DNA of 64,000 nt from Blautia wexlerae DSM 19850. GTDB lineage: Bacteria; Bacillota; Clostridia; Lachnospirales; Lachnospiraceae. Of this stretch, positions 2,566 to 49,478 are shown piece after piece. The stretch lies in the NCBI RefSeq assembly GCF_025148125.1, contig NZ_CP102267.1:509001-573000 (forward strand), read 5' to 3'. Position numbers and translations under genes: made by a program. Position 1 is the first letter of the stretch, and each line of letters begins with the position of its first letter. The notes under the pieces were generated by a model that was given only the letters and a program-made list of their open reading frames with translations, was not told the DNA's origin and searched no databases.

Positions 2566-3507
2566 TTATTCTGCCTGTTTCTGTGGCAGCTGTGCGAGGA
2601 TGATCGCGGCAAACATGATCACGCATCCGAGGATTTCTTTTGCACTTAACTGCTGTCCAAGGAGAACCCATCCGGCAAGGACGGAGATGCAGGATTCCAA
2701 ACTGAGGATCAGGGATGCCACAGTCGGATTCATGTTCTTCTGTCCTATGATCTGCAGGGTGTAGGCTACACCGCAGGACATAATACCTGCATAGAGGATT
2801 GGCATCCATGCCCGGCAGATTGCAGAAAATTCCGGATGCTCAAACAGCAGTGCAGGAATACCGGAAAGGATTCCGCAGGTCAGGAACTGGATGCAGGAAA
2901 GTTTTACTCCGTCAGCTTTCGGAGAAAAGTGGTCAATGACCAGAATGTGTATGGAGAATAAGAATGCGCATACCAGTACAAGCAGGTCACCTTTTCCGAT
3001 GGAGAATTCGTCTGTAATGCACAGAAGGTAAAGACCGATCAGTGCCATTGCAACAGCAGCCCAGATGAATTTGCTGCATTTTTTGCCAAGAAACAGACCG
3101 ATGATCGGTACAATTACGATATAACAGGCGGTAATAAATCCGGCTTTTCCGACAGTGGTATATTTGATGCCGAACTGCTGGAAGTTGCTTGCCAGACAAA
3201 GGCAGATTCCACAGGAAATACCGCCGATGATCAGGTCTTTTCGTTTCCGGATGCTGGATACAGTGCCGTCGGATGAGCCAACGAAACTGTTAGCTTTTGT
3301 AGCAGCAGTATCGGCGGAGTTTTTGCGTCCGGAAATGAGAATAAGCGGAATCAGTACAACTGACCCGAGCAGGGAACGGACTGCACTAAATGTAAATCCA
3401 CCGACATACTCCATTCCTACGCTCTGAGCCACAAAGGCGATACCCCAGATAATTGCTGCCAGGAGCAGAAACAGGGAATTCTTTAAAGGTATCTGTTGTT
3501 TTTGCAT
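2566..3507 (-). CDS. EamA/DMT-superfamily permease
   Basis: A 313-residue protein with ten predicted hydrophobic helices in two homologous halves, the hallmark of the drug/metabolite transporter (EamA) family. Helix 1 contains the typical WGIAFVAQ stretch, and the second half has a matching conserved segment near residues 240-260 (GVAYTLQIIGQKN). A polar insert of about 25 residues (around 65-90) sits in the loop between helices 2 and 3. It likely exports or imports a small metabolite; the substrate is not predictable. It stands alone on the minus strand. The start is ATG at 3505-3507 with an AAGGA site about 11 bases upstream. Confidence 0.88.
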   Translation of the reverse strand: MQKQQIPLKNSLFLLLAAIIWGIAFVAQSVGMEYVGGFTFSAVRSLLGSVVLIPLILISGRKNSADTAATKANSFVGSSDGTVSSIRKRKDLIIGGISCGICLCLASNFQQFGIKYTTVGKAGFITACYIVIVPIIGLFLGKKCSKFIWAAVAMALIGLYLLCITDEFSIGKGDLLVLVCAFLFSIHILVIDHFSPKADGVKLSCIQFLTCGILSGIPALLFEHPEFSAICRAWMPILYAGIMSCGVAYTLQIIGQKNMNPTVASLILSLESCISVLAGWVLLGQQLSAKEILGCVIMFAAIILAQLPQKQAE

Positions 3508-3605: not shown

Positions 3606-3770
3606 GTAGAGTGTGTCTGAAAAATGCTTTCTGCAAGATGTGCGTCACAATTTGTGGGATATTTTGCCCGGATGAGGGCGCCGTAGCGGGCTACGGCAAC
3701 TGAATTCGGGTGAAATATCCTGCAAAGTGGGGCGTGCAGATTGCGGGAATGATTTTTCAGACACGCTCTA
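3606..3770. repeat. 165-bp imperfect inverted-repeat element
   Basis: Starts TAGAGTGTGTCTGAAAAAT and ends with the near-complement. The arms stay complementary, with bulges, down to a GCCGTAGC/GCTACGGC tip near 3680-3700. It is the main content of the gene-free stretch 3508-3943, whose remainder holds the NCS2 terminator and an AT-rich spacer. A 45-bp remnant of the same arm occurs inverted at 39992-40036 with three mismatches. This looks like a non-coding palindromic repeat that has moved within the genome. Confidence 0.8.
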
Positions 3771-5482: not shown

Positions 5483-6760
5483 TTACAGAATCTTTCTTCC
5501 GGCTACATATTTAGCGGTAATATTACGGTCATCGGAAAGGTAGATCAGTCTTTCAAGTCTGTCCCTCGGAGAGAGCTTCAGTGGAGTTGGAATAGTGCTG
5601 TCATTAAGCACAACCGCATCAAATTCATACCCCTCCTTAAAGCTTCCAACCTTTCCAAAGAAGGAACCGCCTCCTTCTGTTCCCATATAAAAGGCTTCTT
5701 CAACAGTGAGCGGCTTCATGGAAGAATCAACCAGCCGCCAGTACAGCTTGGAAACCTGAATAGCATCAGCCATGGCACGCAGAATAGAAACGGAAGTTCC
5801 ACCTGCAATGTCAGAGCCCAGTCCGATGTGTAAGCCTTCGTCCAGATAACGTCTCGCAGGAGAGATACCTGAGGCGAGATTTGTGTTGGACTGCGGACAA
5901 TGAGCAATATAAACGCCCTGCTTTTTCATAAGGGCAATTTCTTCATCCGAAGAATGAACACAATGAGCCATGATCGTCGGACAGTCACCGCCGAAAAGAC
6001 CGAACTGGCTATATGCTTCTCCATAAAAATGTGTATTCGGACAAAGCTCCTTCACCCAGGCAATTTCACCGAAATTTTCAGAAAGGTGTGACTGCATAGG
6101 CAGGTGATACCTCTTCTGAATCTTCGAAAGCTTCTCCATCAGCTCATCAGAACAGGATGGAGTAAATCTCGGAGTAAGGATCGGCTTTACATTTTCAAAT
6201 TTATCAAGCGTATCCTTAATCCACTGAACCGTAGCATCAGCAGAAGCCTGAGCACTCTCTTCCTGCAACTGCGGAGAACCATTACGGTCCATATTTACCT
6301 TGCCGACCATAGCCTTTATTCCGGTTTTATCCAGTTGTTCCATCAGGATCTCGGTAGCAGGGACATGCAGAGTTCCGAAAATACATGCTCTTGTATTTGG
6401 GCTCTTCTTCATATCCTCAGTGAAAATAGAGTAAGCCTCTTTTGCAAACTCTGTATCTTCATAACGCGCTTCCTGCGGAAAAGTATAAGTATTCAGCCAG
6501 TCCAACAGCTCAAGATCCATACCCGAGGCACGAAACGTATACTGCGGAGCATGAAGATGCAGATCAGTCAGTCCCGGAATAATCAGTTCATCGCCAAAAT
6601 CTGTGCATGAGATTCCTGCAAATTTCTCAGGAAGCTCATCAAACACCCCTGCACATCGCCCATCTTCACATACTAAATATCCATTTTCAGTGATGGAAAG
6701 TTCTGTCAGAGAATTACTGTAGCAAATCGTTCCCTTTAAAACAAAAGTCTGCTCGTTCAT
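5483..6760 (-). CDS. guaD: Guanine deaminase (amidohydrolase family)
   Basis: A 425-residue metal-dependent amidohydrolase that converts guanine to xanthine and ammonia in the cytoplasm. Zinc-site and catalytic motifs visible: PGLTDLHLHAPQ (near 60-71), a PMQSHLSEN segment (near 220), MAHCVHSS (near 264), and LGSDIAGG in the C-terminal third. The C-terminus returns to the composite beta-domain. The second ATG (6758-6760) is preferred because it lies seven bases after AGGAGG; the ATG two codons upstream abuts that site. It is followed by the purine permease and preceded by a purine riboswitch, giving a purine salvage/catabolism unit. Confidence 0.93.
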   Translation of the reverse strand: MNEQTFVLKGTICYSNSLTELSITENGYLVCEDGRCAGVFDELPEKFAGISCTDFGDELIIPGLTDLHLHAPQYTFRASGMDLELLDWLNTYTFPQEARYEDTEFAKEAYSIFTEDMKKSPNTRACIFGTLHVPATEILMEQLDKTGIKAMVGKVNMDRNGSPQLQEESAQASADATVQWIKDTLDKFENVKPILTPRFTPSCSDELMEKLSKIQKRYHLPMQSHLSENFGEIAWVKELCPNTHFYGEAYSQFGLFGGDCPTIMAHCVHSSDEEIALMKKQGVYIAHCPQSNTNLASGISPARRYLDEGLHIGLGSDIAGGTSVSILRAMADAIQVSKLYWRLVDSSMKPLTVEEAFYMGTEGGGSFFGKVGSFKEGYEFDAVVLNDSTIPTPLKLSPRDRLERLIYLSDDRNITAKYVAGRKIL

Positions 6761-6847
6761 AACCATACCTCCTTTTTGCGGTTAAGGAAAGGCAAAAAAA
6801 ATCTACCGATGCTGCCTTTACCTCATTCTTTCTCCCTGGGGAGAGAA

Positions 6848-6908
6848 CTTATAGACAACTATTACGGTAGTTGGTAGAAACGTCCAACCGATTATGGACA
6901 TATATAAG
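6848..6908 (-). promoter_or_regulatory. Purine riboswitch aptamer, guanine-specific type
   Basis: On the minus strand this 61-base stretch matches the purine aptamer: P1 CTTATA/TATAAG, a P2 hairpin with GTCCA/TGGAC arms, the invariant junction GTTTCTACC, and a P3 hairpin with the CCGTAA loop. The specificity base in the last junction (GTCTAT, base 6854 complement) is C, which pairs with guanine or hypoxanthine; adenine switches have U. It lies about 90 bases before the guanine deaminase start. Between them is a CTCTCC/GGAGA hairpin and a T8 run (minus strand) at about 6797-6804, probably part of the expression platform. Loop L2 is less canonical than L3. Confidence 0.88.
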
Positions 6909-7167
6909 TTTACTTATATTGTTTATAAAATGATTATAAAATATTTATAGTTAACTGTCAATTCCTTTCTGCAATTTAATTTAATATTCTTTTTGCATTG
7001 CTATTTGATAATTCATAGTCTATAAAGCATTTTACAGGCAGAATTTATATAAAGTATATGATATCCCATGTGAACTTATACAATCTCTTTCATATTTAAA
7101 GTCTTTCTTATTCATGTAGGCTTTTAACATGCGAATTGATACGATATTTTCCACCTTCCAATTACCA

Positions 7168-7375
7168 GCTTAGAAAAATATTTTATCTGCTATGCATTTG
7201 CAGGCATCTTAGAGATTCTTAGTCCTCTTAAATCTGCGTTATGAGAAGAAAAGTCCATTGCCTGAGCACCAGCGAGCAATCATAGACTTTTCTTCTCATG
7301 CTTTTAGCAGATTTCAGATGACTTAGAATCTCTTAGATGCCGAAACCGCATAGCAGATAAAATATTTTTCTAAGC
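7168..7375. repeat. Long inverted-repeat (hairpin) element, copy 1
   Basis: A 208-bp near-perfect long hairpin occupying much of the 678-base gap between guaD and the AI-2E gene. The outer arms are 26 bases each (GCTTAG...CTAAGC). They are interrupted by conserved mispaired motifs GCATTTGCAGG opposite CCGAAACCGC, and TGCGTTATGAG opposite CTCATGC plus TTTAGCA, with CTGAGC and GCGAG near the tip. The same motifs, at matching 5'-arm spacings but with unrelated stem sequence, occur in copy 2 at 12018-12230 (opposite orientation). No coding capacity. The rest of the gap (6909-7167) is AT-rich with nothing recognised. Confidence 0.85.
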
Positions 7376-7438
7376 GTCCGTTTTTTGGGAAAATATGATA
7401 TAATACTCTCCAATATCAAAAAGAAAGGAAAAACAAAC

Positions 7439-8587
7439 ATGCAGCTAGACAAAGAAAACATAAAAAAAATTCGATGGCTCATCGCATTCGCAATTCTCTT
7501 ATATCTGGGTGTCCAGAACCTGCACATAGTCATCAGCACTGTCAGAGTTCTGCTTGGCTTTCTCTTTCCGTTCATCATTGGCTTTGGAATCGCTTTTATC
7601 CTCAATATTCCAATGAAATTCATAGAACATCATCTGTTCGGAAAAGCCTTGAAACAAGAGAAAAAAACAGCACAAAAACTGGCAAGGCCGGTCAGCCTGG
7701 TGCTTTCTATCTGCTTTGTGATCTGTATAATCGTGATCGTTATGCTGGTAGTAGTACCGGAACTGGGGGCAACATTCGTAAACATAGCGAAAAAGATAGA
7801 AGAAAATATTCCGGTTTTCCAGAAATGGATCGACAATGTATTCGGAAACAATCCGGAAGTTGTGAAATGGGCGCAGTCTCTTGACATTGAGCCGGGAAAA
7901 ATAATCGATTCTGTACTCGGCGTACTGAAGAACGGAGTCAATAACATTGTTTCCTCCACAGTGTCCATCACCATGGGACTTCTGACTACTGCAATGAATG
8001 TATCCATTGGCTTTGTATTCGCCTGCTACGTCCTTTTGCAGAAAGAAAAGCTCCTGCAGCAGATAAAAAAAGCAATGTACGCAATGTTCCCGGAAAAACC
8101 GGTCAGATATCTGGCACATGTATGGAATCTGGCAAACAGGATTTTTTCCAACTTTATTACCGGACAGTGTATCGAAGCTGTGATTCTTGGAAGTATGTTC
8201 TTTGTATCCATGACAATCCTGCATTTTCCATATGCAATGCTGGTGGGTGTCCTGATTTCATTTACAGCATTGATCCCGCTGTTTGGCGGAATTATCGGAT
8301 GTTGGGTAGCATTTTTTCTGATCCTTATGATAAGTCCTGTAAAAGCGGTTCTGTTTCTGGGACTTTTCCTTATCCTGCAGCAGATAGAAGGAAACCTGAT
8401 CTATCCTCATGTGGTAGGTGGTTCTGTCGGGCTTCCATCCATCTGGGTACTGGTAGCTGTAACACTTGGCGGCAGTCTGATGGGAATTGCGGGAATGCTG
8501 ATCTTCATTCCGACAGTATCTGTCATCTATACACTTTTCAGAGAGTGGGTATATGCCCGTCTTGAGAAAAAACAGCTTGTTTTATGA
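7439..8587 (+). CDS. AI-2E family transporter / putative permease (PerM/YdiK-like)
   Basis: A 382-residue membrane protein of the AI-2E transporter superfamily. It has an N-terminal pair of hydrophobic segments (after a basic start), a central amphipathic region (residues about 95-170) and a C-terminal block of five segments. The family hallmark near residues 300-340 (QQIEGNLIYPHVVGGSVGLP) is clear. Family members export small molecules or act as Na+/H+ antiporters, and few transport autoinducer-2, so the function is open. The start is ATG 7439, nine bases after AAAGGA. A TATAAT box is at 7399-7404, just after the long hairpin element, so the element sits right at the promoter. Confidence 0.88.
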   Translation: MQLDKENIKKIRWLIAFAILLYLGVQNLHIVISTVRVLLGFLFPFIIGFGIAFILNIPMKFIEHHLFGKALKQEKKTAQKLARPVSLVLSICFVICIIVIVMLVVVPELGATFVNIAKKIEENIPVFQKWIDNVFGNNPEVVKWAQSLDIEPGKIIDSVLGVLKNGVNNIVSSTVSITMGLLTTAMNVSIGFVFACYVLLQKEKLLQQIKKAMYAMFPEKPVRYLAHVWNLANRIFSNFITGQCIEAVILGSMFFVSMTILHFPYAMLVGVLISFTALIPLFGGIIGCWVAFFLILMISPVKAVLFLGLFLILQQIEGNLIYPHVVGGSVGLPSIWVLVAVTLGGSLMGIAGMLIFIPTVSVIYTLFREWVYARLEKKQLVL

Positions 8588-8750
8588 CGAAATGATTCGT
8601 GATGTGTAGAAAGATGTATTATTGTCCGGATAAACTTGGTAACAAATTTGTAAAAGGACTGTAAATCAGTGTAAGGTCTCTGTAATTGTAATTAATTCGA
8701 TATTTCTGTATTATAGTGATATCTGGTTAAAAATGGAAGGAGATCTTAAG

Positions 8751-9125
8751 ATGGACATCTTAAAAGGTAAACGTTATGATATTATGAATGTGCTTTGGGA
8801 AGAGGGAAGACCATTGTCTGCTTTTGAGATCAATGACATTGCACCGGAACTGAAAATGCCGACAGTAAGAAGATGCCTGGAGCTTCTTTTGAAAGAGAAC
8901 CTGATCCAGGTTGCGGGAACTTCAATGAACGGCAAGGTGTATGCAAGAAATTATACCCCTCTTCTTTCAAGAGAGGATTATTTAAAGGGAAATGCCAAAA
9001 GCAGAAAGATTAATCCGGTGGAAATGATGAATGCGCTTCTGGAATCTGATGGGATTACAGTGGAAGAGCTGGAAAAACTTCAGGAGCTTATCGATAAGAA
9101 ACGTGCGGAACTGGAAAGCAGATAA
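8751..9125 (+). CDS. BlaI/MecI-like winged-helix transcriptional regulator
   Basis: A 124-residue protein. An N-terminal winged-helix domain (residues about 1-75) carries the pattern of the penicillinase-repressor family (RYDIMNVLWEEGRPLSAFEI, then a recognition helix with PTVRRCLELLLKENLI). The C-terminal tail is a helical, charged segment suited to dimerisation. No adjacent blaR-type sensor protease or beta-lactamase is present, so the target is unknown. It starts at ATG 8751, eight bases after AAGGAG. It is a single gene followed by its own terminator. Confidence 0.72.
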   Translation: MDILKGKRYDIMNVLWEEGRPLSAFEINDIAPELKMPTVRRCLELLLKENLIQVAGTSMNGKVYARNYTPLLSREDYLKGNAKSRKINPVEMMNALLESDGITVEELEKLQELIDKKRAELESR

Positions 9126-9149
9126 TCATAAACATAGCAGATAAAAACG

Positions 9150-9177
9150 GACATGGCCATCTGGCTGTGTCTTTTTT
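9150..9177 (+). terminator. Intrinsic terminator of the BlaI-like gene
   Basis: GACATGGCCA pairs (with G-U) with TGGCTGTGTC, followed by six T residues. It lies 25 bases after the stop codon. Confidence 0.85.
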
Positions 9178-9215
9178 GTGCCATTTTTTACAGAATTGCA
9201 ATACTGTATCAGGTA

Positions 9216-9253
9216 ATAAAAACAGCCAGATGAATAAAGTGTCCATCTGGCTG
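9216..9253 (-). terminator. Intrinsic terminator of argG
   Basis: On the minus strand CAGCCAGATG and CATCTGGCTG form a perfect 10-bp stem with an 11-base loop, followed by a T-run. It lies 18 bases after the argG stop codon. Confidence 0.9.
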
Positions 9254-9270
9254 AATCTGTTATCAATTAA

Positions 9271-10497
9271 TTATTTCTTGTTCTGCTCAACTTCTTTTAA
9301 CATCATAGCGCGAACTTTCAGTGGAAGTCCGAACAGTGTGATGAATCCATCTGCATCGTGGTGGTCATAGAGGTCACCTGTTGTGAAAGATGCAAGAGAT
9401 TCATTGTACAGGCTGTATGGAGAAGTTGTACCGGCTTTGATGATGTTGCCTTTGTACAGTTTGAATTTAACTTCACCTGTTACATATTTCTGTGTGGACT
9501 CAACGAATGCCTGAATTGCTTCACGAAGCGGTGTGTACCATTTTCCTTCGTATACAACCTGAGCAAACTGGCTGCCGAGTTTCTTCTTGGTTTCCATTGT
9601 CTCGCGGTCGAGTGTCAGTTCTTCGAGCTGTTCATGAGCTGCCATAAGGATTGTTCCGCCAGGAGTCTCATATACACCACGGGATTTCATACCAACAACA
9701 CGGTTTTCAACGATGTCAACGATACCGATACCGTTCTCGCCGCCTAATTTGTTGAGCTCTGTGATGATCTCGGAAACTTTCATTTCTTTGCCGTTTAATG
9801 TTTTCGGAACACCCTGCTCGAATGTCATGGTAACTTCTGTTTCTTTATCAGGGGCTTTCTCAGGTGTAACACCTAAAACAAGCATATTGTCATAATTTGG
9901 AGCCTGTGAAGGATCTTCCAGTTCCAGACCTTCATGGCTGATATGCCATAAGTTTCTGTCACGGCTGTAGCTGTGGCTTGCATCGAATGGAAGGTCGATT
10001 CCGTGAGCTTTACAGAATGCGATCTCATCTTCACGTGACTGCATGGTCCATTTGTCTGTCATACGCCATGGAGCGATGATTTTGATGTCAGGAGCAAGAG
10101 CTTTGATGCCAAGTTCGAAACGGATCTGGTCATTACCTTTACCTGTAGCACCGTGGCAGATAGCAACTGCGCCTTCTTTACGTGCGATCTCAACTAATTT
10201 CTTAGCGATTGCCGGACGGGCCATGGATGTACCAAGGAGATATTTGTGTTCGTATACAGCACCTGCCTGTACACATGGAACGATGAAGTCATCACAGAAT
10301 TCATCTACGATATCTTCGATATATAATTTGGAAGCACCGGAAAGCTTTGCTCTTTCATCCAGTCCGTCCAGTTCGTTTCCCTGACCGCAGTTTACGCAGC
10401 AGCAGACAACATCGTAATCAAATGTTTCTTTTAACCATGGGATTAAGGCTGTGGTATCAAGACCGCCTGAGTATGCTAAAACGACTTTTTCTTTCAT
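9271..10497 (-). CDS. argG: Argininosuccinate synthase
   Basis: A 408-residue cytoplasmic enzyme that joins citrulline and aspartate with ATP to form argininosuccinate, the penultimate step of arginine synthesis. The ATP pyrophosphatase loop AYSGGLDTT is at residues 8-16. Further conserved blocks include HGATGKGNDQIRFE, the DxSYSRDRN-type substrate segment (DASHSYSRDRNLWHIS) and the C-terminal tetramer region. The start is ATG 10495-10497, nine bases after GGAGG; the frame runs on upstream but without a ribosome site. It is transcribed divergently from argCJBD; argH is not in the window. Confidence 0.97.
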   Translation of the reverse strand: MKEKVVLAYSGGLDTTALIPWLKETFDYDVVCCCVNCGQGNELDGLDERAKLSGASKLYIEDIVDEFCDDFIVPCVQAGAVYEHKYLLGTSMARPAIAKKLVEIARKEGAVAICHGATGKGNDQIRFELGIKALAPDIKIIAPWRMTDKWTMQSREDEIAFCKAHGIDLPFDASHSYSRDRNLWHISHEGLELEDPSQAPNYDNMLVLGVTPEKAPDKETEVTMTFEQGVPKTLNGKEMKVSEIITELNKLGGENGIGIVDIVENRVVGMKSRGVYETPGGTILMAAHEQLEELTLDRETMETKKKLGSQFAQVVYEGKWYTPLREAIQAFVESTQKYVTGEVKFKLYKGNIIKAGTTSPYSLYNESLASFTTGDLYDHHDADGFITLFGLPLKVRAMMLKEVEQNKK

Positions 10498-10957
10498 GAT
10501 TGTATTCCTCCTGAAATTGGATTTTATTATTTTCCTGATTTGTAAAAATTTCCTGAGATATCCGTTTGCCGAAAGTAAATGAATAGGTCGGGAGTTCAGC
10601 GCATTATTTTTGAATAAATGCGGTAATTTCTGATTGAAATTTTTGAATAAATATTCAATGCGGAACAAGATGATTTCGTGTGATTCCGCTTAACAAGTGA
10701 TAATATACACCTTTTTTTATAAATATGCAATAGAAAAATGCAAAAAAGTTTTATCTGTTTTTGCATAAATATGCAACATAATATAGGAAAAGACAGGGGG
10801 AAATCCGTGAACTGAAATAAAATCCATGTAAAAACATTGAAAAATGACTATTGCATATTATGCAGGTAAGATGTATAATTAGTCCAGCACTCTGATAGAG
10901 TAAAGTTTTACTATGAAATGAAGATCGCCGGATGAGGCGAAGATGGAGGAAATTATT
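10498..10957. promoter_or_regulatory. Divergent argG/argC control region with ARG-box-like palindromes
   Basis: argC promoter: TTGCAT (10851-10856), 17-bp spacer, TATAAT (10874-10879). argG promoter on the minus strand: TTGCAT (complement of 10725-10730), 17-bp spacer, TATATT (complement of 10702-10707). Both -35 boxes sit inside AT-rich palindromes of the TGCAT..ATGCA type (TTGCATATTATGCA at 10851). Another clean copy, TGCATAAATATGCA, is at 10763-10776 and TTGAATAAATATTCAA is near 10643. These resemble ArgR boxes, so arginine repression is likely; the repressor gene is not in the window. Confidence 0.7.
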
Positions 10958-11998
10958 ATGATTAAAGCAGGAATTATCGGTGCCACAGGATATGCAGGTA
11001 ACGAGATCGTGAGACTGCTTCTGGGACATAAAGATGTGGAAGTTGCGTGGTATGGTTCAAGAAGTTACATTGACCAGAAATATGCAGATGTTTATCAGAA
11101 CTTTTTTAAATTGGTAGATGCGAAATGTATGGATGATAATATGGAAGCATTAGCTGATGAAGTGGATGTGATCTTTACAGCTACTCCTCAGGGACTCTGT
11201 GCTTCTTTAATTAATGAAGGAATTCTTTCCAAGGCGAAAGTTATTGACCTGAGTGCGGATTTCCGTATTAAAGATGTGAAGAAATATGAGAAATGGTACG
11301 GAATTGAGCATAAGGCTCCGCAGTTTATTGATGAGGCGGTTTATGGTTTATGTGAGATTAATCGTGAGGAGATTAAGAAGGCAAGACTGATTGCGAATCC
11401 GGGATGTTATCCCACATGTTCTACACTTTCTATTTATCCGCTGATCAAAGAGGGGCTGATCGATCCGTCTACGATTATCATTGATGCGAAGTCCGGTACT
11501 TCAGGAGCAGGACGTGGAGCGAAGGTTGCCAATCTGTTCTGTGAAGTGAATGAGAATATTAAGGCTTATGGTGTTGCAAGTCACAGACATACACCGGAGA
11601 TTGAGGATCAGCTTGGTTATGCGTGCGGTAAGGAAGTGCTGATTAATTTTACACCTCATCTGATTCCTATGAATCGTGGTATTCTTGTGACTGCTTATGC
11701 TTCTCTGACTAAGGATGTTTCTTATGAAGAGGTGAAGGCAGTTTATGATAAGTATTATGAGAAGGAGACTTTCGTTCGTGTGCTTGATAAGGATGTTTGT
11801 CCGCAGACTAAGTGCGTGGAGGGAAGTAATTATGTGGATGTGAACTTTAAGATTGATCCCAGAACTCACAGAGTTATTATGATGGGGGCTATGGATAATC
11901 TGGTGAAAGGTGCTGCGGGACAGGCTGTGCAGAATATGAACCTGATGTTTGGATTTAAGGAGGCTGAGGGACTGCTGCAGGTGCCGATGTGTCCGTGA
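10958..11998 (+). CDS. argC: N-acetyl-gamma-glutamyl-phosphate reductase
   Basis: A 346-residue NADPH-dependent enzyme that reduces N-acetylglutamyl phosphate to the semialdehyde, the third step of arginine synthesis. The N-terminal Rossmann motif GIIGATGYAGNE is at residues 5-16. The catalytic Cys lies in the conserved NPGCYPT segment (near 147-153), followed by DAKSGTSGAGR and the ASHRHTPEI histidine segment. The start is ATG 10958, eight bases after GGAGG; an ATG five codons upstream lies in the ribosome site. First gene of the argCJBD cluster, but separated from argJ by a long hairpin element. Confidence 0.97.
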   Translation: MIKAGIIGATGYAGNEIVRLLLGHKDVEVAWYGSRSYIDQKYADVYQNFFKLVDAKCMDDNMEALADEVDVIFTATPQGLCASLINEGILSKAKVIDLSADFRIKDVKKYEKWYGIEHKAPQFIDEAVYGLCEINREEIKKARLIANPGCYPTCSTLSIYPLIKEGLIDPSTIIIDAKSGTSGAGRGAKVANLFCEVNENIKAYGVASHRHTPEIEDQLGYACGKEVLINFTPHLIPMNRGILVTAYASLTKDVSYEEVKAVYDKYYEKETFVRVLDKDVCPQTKCVEGSNYVDVNFKIDPRTHRVIMMGAMDNLVKGAAGQAVQNMNLMFGFKEAEGLLQVPMCP

Positions 11999-12017
11999 TA
12001 GATTAATGGAAAGGGAC

Positions 12018-12230
12018 GCTCCGGAAATTATTTGGTTTTGAACGCGGTTTCGGGGCTTACTAACTCTAAGTGCTCGTGAATTTGCTAAAGGCATGAGGCG
12101 GCTTGTCAAACTCGCTCCGTTGCAAACTTCGCTCAGACAGTGATGCAGCCGCCTCATAACGCAAATTCCCGAGCACTAAGAGTTACTACAGCCCCTGCAA
12201 ATGCGTTCAAAACCAAATAATTTCCGGAGC
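12018..12230. repeat. Long inverted-repeat (hairpin) element, copy 2, inside the arg cluster
   Basis: A 213-bp long hairpin filling most of the 369-base gap between argC and argJ. Read on the minus strand it carries the same motif order as copy 1 (7168-7375): 26-base outer arm, GCATTTGCAGG, 30 bases, TGCGTTATGAG, 16 bases, CTGAGC, tip, GCGAG, CTCATGC, TTTAGCA, CCGAAACCGC, 26-base arm. The stem sequence itself (GCTCCGG...CCGGAGC) is unrelated to copy 1, yet self-complementary. The remaining 12231-12367 bases hold only the argJ leader, and nothing else was recognised there. Confidence 0.85.
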
Positions 12231-12367
12231 TGACTTTTCAGGACGGAAGAGATGTGGATGTCTGACGGACGTGACTGCGCAGGGGATCTGCGGCAGTCGC
12301 TGAGAGTGGAGGATGTGGACGGGAAACAAGATAGTTTGTCTTATTATATAGAAAGGATTGAGGTTTT

Positions 12368-13591
12368 ATGAAGATTATAGAGGGCGGCGTTACGGCGGCT
12401 AAGGGATTTAAGGCAGCTGCGGCTGCGGCTGAGATTAAGTATAAGGGCAGAACGGATATGGCTATGGTTTACAGTGAGGTGCCTTGTGTAGCTGCGGGGA
12501 CTTTTACTACCAATGTGGTGAAGGCTGCGCCTGTTAAATGGGATCAGGATATTGTTTATAATCATCCGTCTGCACAGGTGGTGATCTGTAACAGTGGTAT
12601 TGCCAATGCATGTACTGGTGCAGAAGGTTATGGTTATTGTAAGGAGACTGCAGATGCGGCTGCTGAGATTCTTGGGGTGGCTGCTGACAGTGTGCTGGTT
12701 GCTTCTACAGGTGTGATTGGTATGCAGGTTCCCATTGACCGTATTAAGAATGGTGTGAAGATGATGGCGCCGAAGCTGGATGGTTCTCTGGAGGCTGGTA
12801 CTGAGGCGGCGAAGGCGATCATGACTACTGATACCAAAAAGAAAGAGGTTGCTGTTCAGATTGAGATTGGCGGTAAGACGGTTACTGTTGGTGGTATGTG
12901 TAAGGGTTCCGGTATGATCCATCCGAATATGTGTACAATGCTTGGGTTTGTTACTACTGATGCGAAGATTTCCAAGAAGATGCTGCAGGAAGCGTTAAGT
13001 GAGGATGTTAAGGATACTTACAATATGGTTTCTGTTGATGGAGATACTTCTACCAATGATACAGTTCTTCTTCTGGCCAATGGTCTGGCTGAGAATCCGG
13101 AGATCACAGAGAAGGGTGAGGATTACGAAACCTTCAAGGCTGCGCTGAATTATATCAATACTACTCTGGCGAAGAAGATCGCAGGTGACGGAGAGGGTGC
13201 GACTGCACTGTTTGAGGTGAAGATCATTGGTGCAGAGTCTAAGGAGCAGGCAGTTACATTGAGCAAGTCTGTTGTTACTTCTTCTCTGACAAAGGCTGCT
13301 ATCTACGGACATGATGCAAACTGGGGAAGAATCCTGTGTGCTATGGGATATTCCGGTGCGGAGTTTGATCCTGAGAAGGTGGATCTGTTCTTTGAGAGTA
13401 AGGCTGGTAAGATCCAGATTATTGAGAATGGTGTGGCTGTGGATTACAGTGAAGAAGAGGCAACGAAGATTCTTTCTGAGGAAGCTGTCACAGCAATCGC
13501 TGATGTGAAGATGGGTGATGCCACAGCAACTGCATGGGGCTGTGACCTGACTTATGATTATATAAAAATCAATGCAGATTACCGTTCATAA
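12368..13591 (+). CDS. argJ: Bifunctional glutamate N-acetyltransferase / ornithine acetyltransferase
   Basis: A 407-residue self-processing enzyme that moves the acetyl group from N-acetylornithine to glutamate, making the arginine pathway cyclic. The autocleavage site is visible as GEGAT with the nucleophilic Thr at residue 279; cleavage before it yields alpha and beta chains. The conserved [13 protein letters not shown] block lies near residues 177-189 and a conserved HDANWGRI segment near 313-320. The start is ATG 12368 after an AAAGGA/TGAGG leader. Ornithine acetyltransferase activity is clear; whether it also uses acetyl-CoA cannot be judged. Confidence 0.96.
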
Positions 13592-49317: not shown

Positions 49318-49478
49318 TATAGCAATCCTCGTAAATAATGCATTTAAGACAGTTCAGCAGAGTGCGAAAGACAAGGAAGATATCTGCAGGCGTGCTGACG
49401 CACGGCAAAGATATCTGACGCAGGATTTCACACTCTGATGGGCTGGATTAAGATGCATTATTTCAGAGGATTGCTATA
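49318..49478. repeat. 161-bp TATAGCAAT inverted-repeat element
   Basis: Arms TATAGCAATCCTC...AATAATGCAT and their complement at the right end pair over about 33 bp. The left inner part GACAGTTCAGCAGAGTGCGAAAG matches the loop of the 2459 element. The centre has a second stem (ATATCTGC.../...). With the neighbour at 49217 it fills most of the 385-base gap before moeA, whose last 80 bases are the promoter and leader (a possible TTGAAA...TATACA). Confidence 0.75.

Follow-up and report, generated by a model that had tools for sequence, protein, structure and literature searches.

We describe a long-hairpin element present in two copies in a 64,000-nucleotide stretch of DNA (the window), positions 509001-573000 of the single-contig 4.69 Mb genome of Blautia wexlerae (G000, the home genome). 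Copy 1 occupies the intergenic region of two divergently oriented genes, one for an amidohydrolase (5483-6766, -) and one for an AI-2E transporter (7439-8587, +), and copy 2 is enclosed by argC (10943-11998, +) and argJ (12368-13591, +), to both of which it is antisense (neighbours assigned by Pfam). An initial annotation of the window had placed hairpins at both sites; both are present there, and Table 1 gives their full extents as set by a covariance model. The copies belong to a family whose stems change freely yet stay paired and whose short motifs are fixed, and in resident copies both motifs and pairing are maintained in place.

Architecture and covariation of the element

Read 5' to 3', the first half of the element comprises a weakly conserved CCAAYAAC, CAGC, an outer arm of ~26-28 bases, GCATTTGCAGG, a short stem, CTTAG motifs, a stem, TGCGTTAT and a further stem; the tip is CTGTCTGAGC..GCGAGT; and the 3' half comprises the returning stem, CATGC(T)TTTTAGCA, CTTAG motifs, CCGAAACCGC, the returning outer arm, GCGTCC and a C/T-rich tract. 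The motif pairs GCATTTGCAGG/CCGAAACCGC, CTTAG/CTTAG and TGCGTTAT/TTTTAGCA are invariant, as is the tip, and the stems are variable; CTTAG stands opposite CTTAG with a T-T mismatch. The folding energy of copy 1 has a z score of -16.35 against dinucleotide shuffles and that of copy 2 a z score of -13.62, with 0 of 200 shuffles equally low in either case.

In 27 aligned copies, paired cells amount to 97.4% (78.5% in shuffles), double changes occur in 49 of 71 pairs (29.2 in shuffles), and the covariation score is 0.495 (0.132 shuffled); when the partner is slid by 1-3 columns the score drops to 0.045-0.097 and the signal is lost. This signal, well above both controls, and the 15 compensated pairs found in orthologs bear out the earlier proposal that pairing has been retained despite sequence change. 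The motifs listed in the initial annotation occur in both hairpins in the same order, and the 5'-arm spacing is indeed equal between copies, the pairwise alignment between 5'-arm motifs being gapless; the values given for it (26, 30 and 16) are not those read from the sequence of copy 1, where start-to-start motif spacings are 24, 17 and 27. The alignment has a single 1-base gap in the 3' arm and a gap of 6 bases at the tip. That everything between the motifs pairs with the opposite arm is nearly correct, with a few mismatches.

Element length is 209-224 nt in 37 distinct copies, copies across ~40 places in the home genome being mostly 203-221 nt, and the ends CAGC and GCGTCC are common to nearly all home copies. 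T-rich positions follow 2-5 bases past GCGTCC on the modelled strand in 22-25 of 38 home copies; the 20 bases upstream of the elements hold CCAAYAAC only and no promoter-like consensus, no dedicated promoter scan having been made. At one home locus (L122, ~1932-1980), the 3' end unit CTTTTCTATGCGTCC is tandemly repeated (GCGTCC three times); it is single in the G063 ortholog.

Table 1. Positions of the two copies and their parts within the window
Feature	Position	Strand	Description
Copy 1 (CAGC ... GCGTCC)	7166-7379	+	214 nt; covariance-model match 220.4 bits
Copy 1 outer arm, 5' side	7168-7195	+	28 nt, 100% complementary to 7348-7375
Copy 1 motif GCATTTGCAGG, 5' side of first internal loop	7194-7204	+	Partner CCGAAACCGC at 7340-7349; invariant in alignments A2 and A3
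Copy 1 motif CTTAG(T)	7218-7223	+	Pairs with opposite-arm CTTAG, central T-T mismatch
Copy 1 motif TGCGTTATGAG	7235-7245	+	Opposite CTCATGC(TT)TTAGCA at 7295-7309, asymmetric internal loop between
Copy 1 tip, CTGAGC ... GCGAG	7262-7276	+	Similar tip in other Clostridia families
Copy 1, two CTTAGA motifs, 3' arm	7322-7337	+	Read from sequence
Copy 1 motif CCGAAACCGC	7340-7349	+	Partner of GCATTTGCAGG
Copy 1 outer arm, 3' side	7348-7375	+	Inverted-repeat partner of 7168-7195
Copy 2	12014-12232	-	219 nt; covariance-model match 217.2 bits
Copy 2 CGTCC-side arm	12009-12055	-	47 nt, 83% complementary to 12193-12239
Copy 2 CAGC-side arm	12193-12239	-	Inverted-repeat partner of 12009-12055

Elsewhere in the window, a purine riboswitch aptamer lies at 6832-6927 (-), upstream of the amidohydrolase gene, and an imperfect palindrome with 81-nt arms (73% complementary, 2-nt spacer) occupies 3607-3770.

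Constraint on resident copies

We compared orthologous copies at 20 loci with genome G063 and at 8 loci with genome G025; some home loci serve both, so that the 28 comparisons are not fully independent. Because of swapped modules, the comparison with G063 leaves out L110 and L121, that with G025 leaves out L103, L117 and L121, and a comparison of L110 with G014 is likewise omitted; with swapped-module loci kept, there are 34 comparisons and 83 double changes. Dead repeats are expected to change like their flanks, defined here as sequence within 80 bases of the element, and we therefore take slower change as constraint in place. Against G063, differences affect 32 of 1616 outer-arm sites, 47 of 1678 sites in the rest of the core and 118 of 2605 sites in well-aligned flanks (206 of 2909 in all flanks, including poorly aligned ones); against G025 the corresponding counts are 15 of 448, 31 of 792 and 76 of 922 (well-aligned flanks). 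The contrast between arms and flanks has a Fisher p of 7e-6 for G063 and 5e-4 for G025. Motif sites defined on the home copy differ at 2 of 973 (G063, p 3e-14) and 4 of 490 (G025, p 1e-10); because this definition misses changes on the home side, sites defined on either copy give the fairer and milder counts of 5 of 1218 and 8 of 556, or ~0.4% and 1.4% against 4.5% and 8.2% in the flanks.

The same 28 comparisons hold 2327 pairs, of which 77 show a single change and 15 a Watson-Crick double change; independence of sites predicts ~1.3 double changes. The slow change of the motifs and the excess of compensated pairs therefore indicate that resident copies retain their motifs and their pairing in place. 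Gene conversion may contribute to this; explaining the motifs by conversion alone would presumably need more stem swaps than are seen.

Exchange of stem segments

The freedom of the stems was analysed in 20 of 26 copies of genome G029, with arm ends set, by local alignment, where pairing stops. Between copies, the cores share a median of 0.83 of their sequence; the arms so delimited are 30-87 bases long and Watson-Crick in 1161 of 1192 pairs, some long arms being Watson-Crick throughout (83/83, 81/81 and 68/68). Arm identity between copies declines outward, from 0.60 at 1-15 bases from the core to 0.53 at 16-30 and 0.45 at 31-50 (shuffled 0.40), and CAGC/GCGTCC ends are present in only ~8 of the 20 copies.

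Whole stem segments are replaceable on both arms together between orthologs. At L110, three species have a common core at a common locus, yet the outer arms, well paired in each, differ among all three, as does the adjoining left flank; apical parts differ between the orthologs at L121, L117 and L103; and L128 shows a compensated patch with an indel. Inter-copy covariation thus arises partly because stem segments have been exchanged as wholes (L110, L121, L117, L103) and not wholly from stepwise compensation, and exchange between copies together with correction of one arm by the other is therefore likely to contribute to stem change. Homogenisation of inverted repeats by template switching between arms is reported in the available portions of three papers (PMC8604942, PMC7202029, PMC3820800). 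We considered whether arm diversity proves arm-to-arm correction free of selection, and rejected this, as the rates of change in place speak against correction alone. The earlier view that the hairpins are a selected structure rather than a simple repeat is partly supported: the maintenance of pairing stands, and the partial replacement of whole stem segments and the traits shared with miniature inverted-repeat transposable elements (MITEs) weaken the rest.

DNA or RNA as the level of selection

RNA pairing tolerates G-U, and DNA pairing has no preference for G-T over A-C. Single changes in orthologs gave 33 G-U and 24 A-C (p 0.29), and the G029 arms hold 13 G-U and 10 A-C. In the A3 alignment there are 32 G-U against 15 A-C cells (p 0.02), which reduce to 16 and 13 when distinct classes are counted; the outer arms of the home copies hold 8 and 3. 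Where gene context implies read-through of the modelled strand the counts are 12 and 5, and where it implies read-through of the complement, 12 and 11. As G-U shows no clear excess over A-C among these changes, it is not evident that selection acts on pairing in RNA. Of 23 home elements between co-directional genes (genes being longest-open-reading-frame calls), 17 are antisense to those genes, so that an RNA made by read-through would in most cases contain the opposite strand. The evidence from wobble pairs and orientation leans to DNA without deciding the question.

No element reached an Rfam gathering score in the window and 25 loci searched, on which ground we rejected a known RNA family. 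The best sub-threshold matches on elements (7 + 18 loci) were plant microRNA precursors (E 1.8e-7 and 7.1e-7); these scored 47 and 52 bits, where the gathering scores are 180 and 211, and we take them to be generic matches to a long hairpin. An intrinsic terminator would have a U-tract immediately after the stem on the transcribed strand; the T-rich positions after GCGTCC could suit such a role, the prevailing antisense orientation less so.

Copy number and distribution

Where the initial annotation described two copies, an exact core pattern finds 18 in the home chromosome, and a covariance model, built from 27 copies and run also on Lachnospiraceae genomes, reveals a family far beyond two. 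On both strands of the home chromosome the model gives 70 matches, which reduce to 40 distinct places because a hairpin also matches in reverse. Nearly all home copies are intergenic. The place at 4097584 is broken and that at 686452 has a poorly matched right end; these and 4495577 were excluded from a 37-copy set used for orientation (broken or overlapping context). In a contig scan that may not have included near relatives of the home genome, two named genomes and no others held the exact pattern, Blautia wexlerae MSK.20.46 and Blautia sp. MSJ-9. With the home genome included throughout, the model matches 26 of 64 genomes of the genus (E 0.001), with 1 to 37 matches per element-bearing genome and at most 37 candidates scored in each; 33 of 347 sampled Lachnospiraceae genomes, or 27 of 307 genera (E 1e-6), a lower bound from a shallow screen in which 6 candidates per genome were scored; and 7 of 392 genomes at class level. 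The six other class-level genomes come from five further families, and their matches are weak (44-77 bits). Eight of these matches were inspected, with every genome represented, and in 7 of them a tip of similar form (CTGTYTGAGC..GCGAGTTT) is recognisable by eye, from which a wider superfamily beyond Lachnospiraceae appears likely. The core pattern occurs in none of the viral contigs searched, the tip pattern in one (a 41-kb IMG/VR contig, L354, ~1120-1240), and a 31-base tip query had no match in plasmids.

Other repeats accompany the element. In G046, a different hairpin-like repeat sharing the tip (CTGTCTGAGCGTAGCGAGTTTG) lies between four tandem copies (L298). A second repeat family of ~70 nt (...TTCCTTGTCTTTCGCACTTTGCTGAACTGTCTTAAATGCATTATTTACAAGGATTGCTATAG), with 26 further matches listed in the home chromosome, adjoins the 5' side of some hairpins and is found in the window at 49318-49478 and 2459-2542; the window inverted repeat I5 is one match, and I3 resembles it. 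Several elements are preceded by a third repeat, GTTACTGTTCGCTCCGTTCACAGTAAC ... GTGTGTGAACAGTAAC (L099 ~3110-3260, L122 ~1550-1690, and ends beside L098 and L112).

Mobility, loss and neighbouring genes

The element has the MITE traits of being short, non-coding, dispersed and present in many copies (~40 places in the home genome). Two home paralogs 8.8 kb apart (L096 and L113) are near-identical from CAGC to GCGTCCC, with sharp ends and unrelated flanks; this pair and the patchy spread are MITE-like. The ends CAGC and GCGTCC are fixed in the home genome and the arms are variable. No target duplication is visible in 38 flanks or in the near-identical pair, element-less sites being deletion scars or unalignable. 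G046 carries nine head-to-head pairs of copies, 300-550 bp from start to start, and four copies in a tandem cluster.

Loss is frequent. At argC-argJ, ~18-27 bases of one arm remain in G063 and G014, and ~25 bases of window copy 1 remain in G025; G063 retains a 5' stump of the second element of L099, and short outer hairpins or a partial element are left at three further loci in relatives. The argC-argJ locus was matched in 60 of 64 genus genomes, of which 30 loci were read: 2 have the element, 2 have scars, and 26 are traceless in unalignable spacers. Nine further home loci were compared in three relatives, and the three read closely are all deletions or rearrangements. Several element-less sites are deletions between direct repeats.

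Pfam assigned ordinary functions (metabolism, transport, redox, germination, tRNA synthetase and similar) to 26 of 30 element-adjacent proteins, the other 4 being unmatched; the set comprises 4 proteins from the window and 26 from 16 loci in other genomes, and does not include every nearest open reading frame. None of the 30 belongs to a transposase or recombinase family, and we accordingly rejected a cognate gene adjoining the element. Open reading frames between three home pairs of elements, judged by eye, are likewise ordinary, which argues against pairs flanking a cargo. Among 41 pattern matches listed in 7 genomes, few were palindromic by eye, and no abundant family of short hairpins with the same ends emerged. 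Copies oriented against the leading strand number 27 of 37 in the home genome, 16 of 18 in G009, 14 of 15 in G017, 9 of 10 in G103, 2 of 4 in G276 and 12 of 28 in G046, where chromosome halves were set from dnaA, three G009 matches on another contig were omitted, and G009 and G017 look closely related. We rejected lagging-strand insertion, as this bias is inseparable from gene orientation; it is strong in G009, G017 and G103 and absent in G046.

Discussion

Our analysis establishes the anatomy, the family, the dispersal and the in-place constraint of a long-hairpin element. The explanation we favour, which we put at somewhat short of an even chance, is that of a dispersed, originally mobile element that works as a folded strand, most likely of DNA, read by a protein: a single-stranded phase would expose the element as a hairpin or cruciform; a trans-acting protein would read the bulges, the tip and the ends of the folded strand; the outer stem would need only to be double-stranded, so that its sequence drifts while selection keeps its pairing; arm-to-arm correction during replication and exchange between copies would assist that pairing; and new copies would arise, or have arisen, by copying of the whole unit into a new intergenic site. 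Candidate reasons for conservation in place are a binding site, a chromosome or replication function, and continuing use as a donor. The bolder version, a new class of folded-strand DNA elements spread over Clostridia, with recognition only in bulges, tip and ends and with private self-complementary stems selected in place, we regard as rather doubtful.

Several observations weigh against the folded-strand DNA explanation. No trans-acting protein was identified in genome comparisons or neighbour scans, and dependence on a Y1 transposase (PF01797) is not supported: this family occurs in 19 of the 26 genus genomes that bear the element and in 21 of the 38 that lack it, and G046, with 28 model matches, has no PF01797 match. 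No clean pre-insertion site was seen among the compared loci; single elements look dispensable from the frequency of their deletion, which sits badly with constraint in place; and the home orientation bias does not exceed that of the flanking genes, 75.7% of which lie on the leading strand. Local rearrangement could inflate flank rates, although the contrast persists with well-aligned flanks only; the high pairing of the G029 arms is partly by construction; and the excess of G-U cells in the A3 alignment fits RNA. The missing trans-acting factor and the unease between deletion and constraint are the reasons why our confidence stays below one half.

A structured RNA, transcribed and acting in place either on the processing or stability of a messenger RNA or as a small RNA, with loops and tip that bind a protein, we judge somewhat unlikely. 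Fixed asymmetric internal loops and a fixed tip combined with free stems are typical of structured RNA, and constraint on motifs and pairing in place, the G-U excess in the A3 alignment and where the modelled strand is read through, the T-rich tract after GCGTCC on that strand, and copies within operon-like pairs (argC-argJ, hypF-hypD, fucose isomerase-aldolase) all suit it; yet G-U shows no clear preference in orthologs, in G029 or where the complement is read through, home copies between co-directional genes are mostly antisense, neither a promoter-like consensus in the 20 upstream bases nor an Rfam gathering score was found, and 83-bp Watson-Crick arms exceed the needs of RNA pairing. A functionless MITE, non-autonomous and moved by an ordinary transposase in trans, with arm complementarity arising solely from template switching in replication, would account for the dispersed, patchy, mostly intergenic and sharp-ended copies without a long open reading frame of their own, the one near-identical pair, the patch-like replacement of stem segments in orthologs and the deletion scars, and available text of three reports describes such homogenisation of inverted-repeat arms (PMC8604942, PMC7202029, PMC3820800). 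We nevertheless think it unlikely: motifs change ~11 times (G063) and ~6 times (G025) more slowly than well-aligned flanks, fixed mismatched motifs (CTTAG/CTTAG) should vanish by correction unless maintained, correction alone predicts arms near the flank rate where 2.0% against 4.5% is observed, and neither a target duplication was seen nor a linked transposase found. It is less probable still that the core alone moves and that the arms, outside the mobile unit, are inverted repeats of local sequence into which the core has inserted or which it has produced. The alike cores and nearly unrelated outer arm parts of G029 copies and the L110 trio would fit such a mover; against it stand the CAGC/GCGTCC ends of nearly all home copies (though not of most G029 copies), the arms shared by the near-identical pair, the lack of an abundant short-hairpin family with the same ends in 7 genomes, and element-less sites that fit deletion, several of them between direct repeats.

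If the folded-strand DNA explanation is true, a common gut lineage carries a widespread element that would tend to escape ordinary repeat searches, since little of its length has a fixed sequence; it would separate structure from sequence unusually cleanly, offer natural near-perfect palindromes of 50-87 bp for the study of arm correction and deletion, and pose the sharp question of which protein reads the bulges and whether the folded strand is DNA or RNA.

We found no description of the element in Rfam or in the open-access literature, a search outside which most subscription papers lie; to this extent the initial annotation was right that no named element has these motifs, and no transposase could be linked to the element. 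The attC sites of integrons are recombination sites recognised in the form of a folded single strand, in which the stem sequence is free and extrahelical bases are conserved, and the element would be like them in these respects; it differs in that its boxes did not match those of attC by eye and that no cassette array or integrase link was noticed, no search having been made. REPs (repetitive extragenic palindromes) of RAYT (REP-associated tyrosine transposase) systems, including CGTC-tagged ones, share with the element a hairpin and a short unpaired tag beside the stem (CGTCC here), as described in the available portions of one paper, the text of which contains no word beginning Clostridi; REPs are 20-40 bp, whereas the element is 209-224 nt with arms up to 87 bases in G029, carries its tag 3' of the stem, and shows no Y1 transposase dependence in the genus (PMC3733652). 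We rejected a CGTC-tagged REP on size, taxa and tag position (PMC3733652). Prokaryotic MITEs, as far as covered in the available text of a review without words beginning Lachnospir, Clostridi or Blautia, are likewise dispersed, non-coding and hairpin-forming, with sharp ends and decay by deletion; unlike them, the element has no terminal inverted repeat that is fixed in sequence past a few bases, its motifs are conserved in place, and neither a target duplication nor a parent insertion sequence (IS) was found, the latter not sought by its ends (PMC10969869). The bcr1 and other structured bacterial repeats, in the accessible sections of a survey, are also 100-300 bp, dispersed and conserved in their stem-loop fold; they occur in other taxa, the Clostridium families named there being Clop-1 (93 bp), Clot-1 (74), Clot-2 (31) and Clot-3 (90), and the element differs in stems almost free in sequence and arms of up to 87 bp (PMC2267715). 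By analogy, the element may be set beside bacterial MITEs and structured repeats such as bcr1, which it somewhat resembles, and beside folded-strand recombination sites, as a member of none of these groups.

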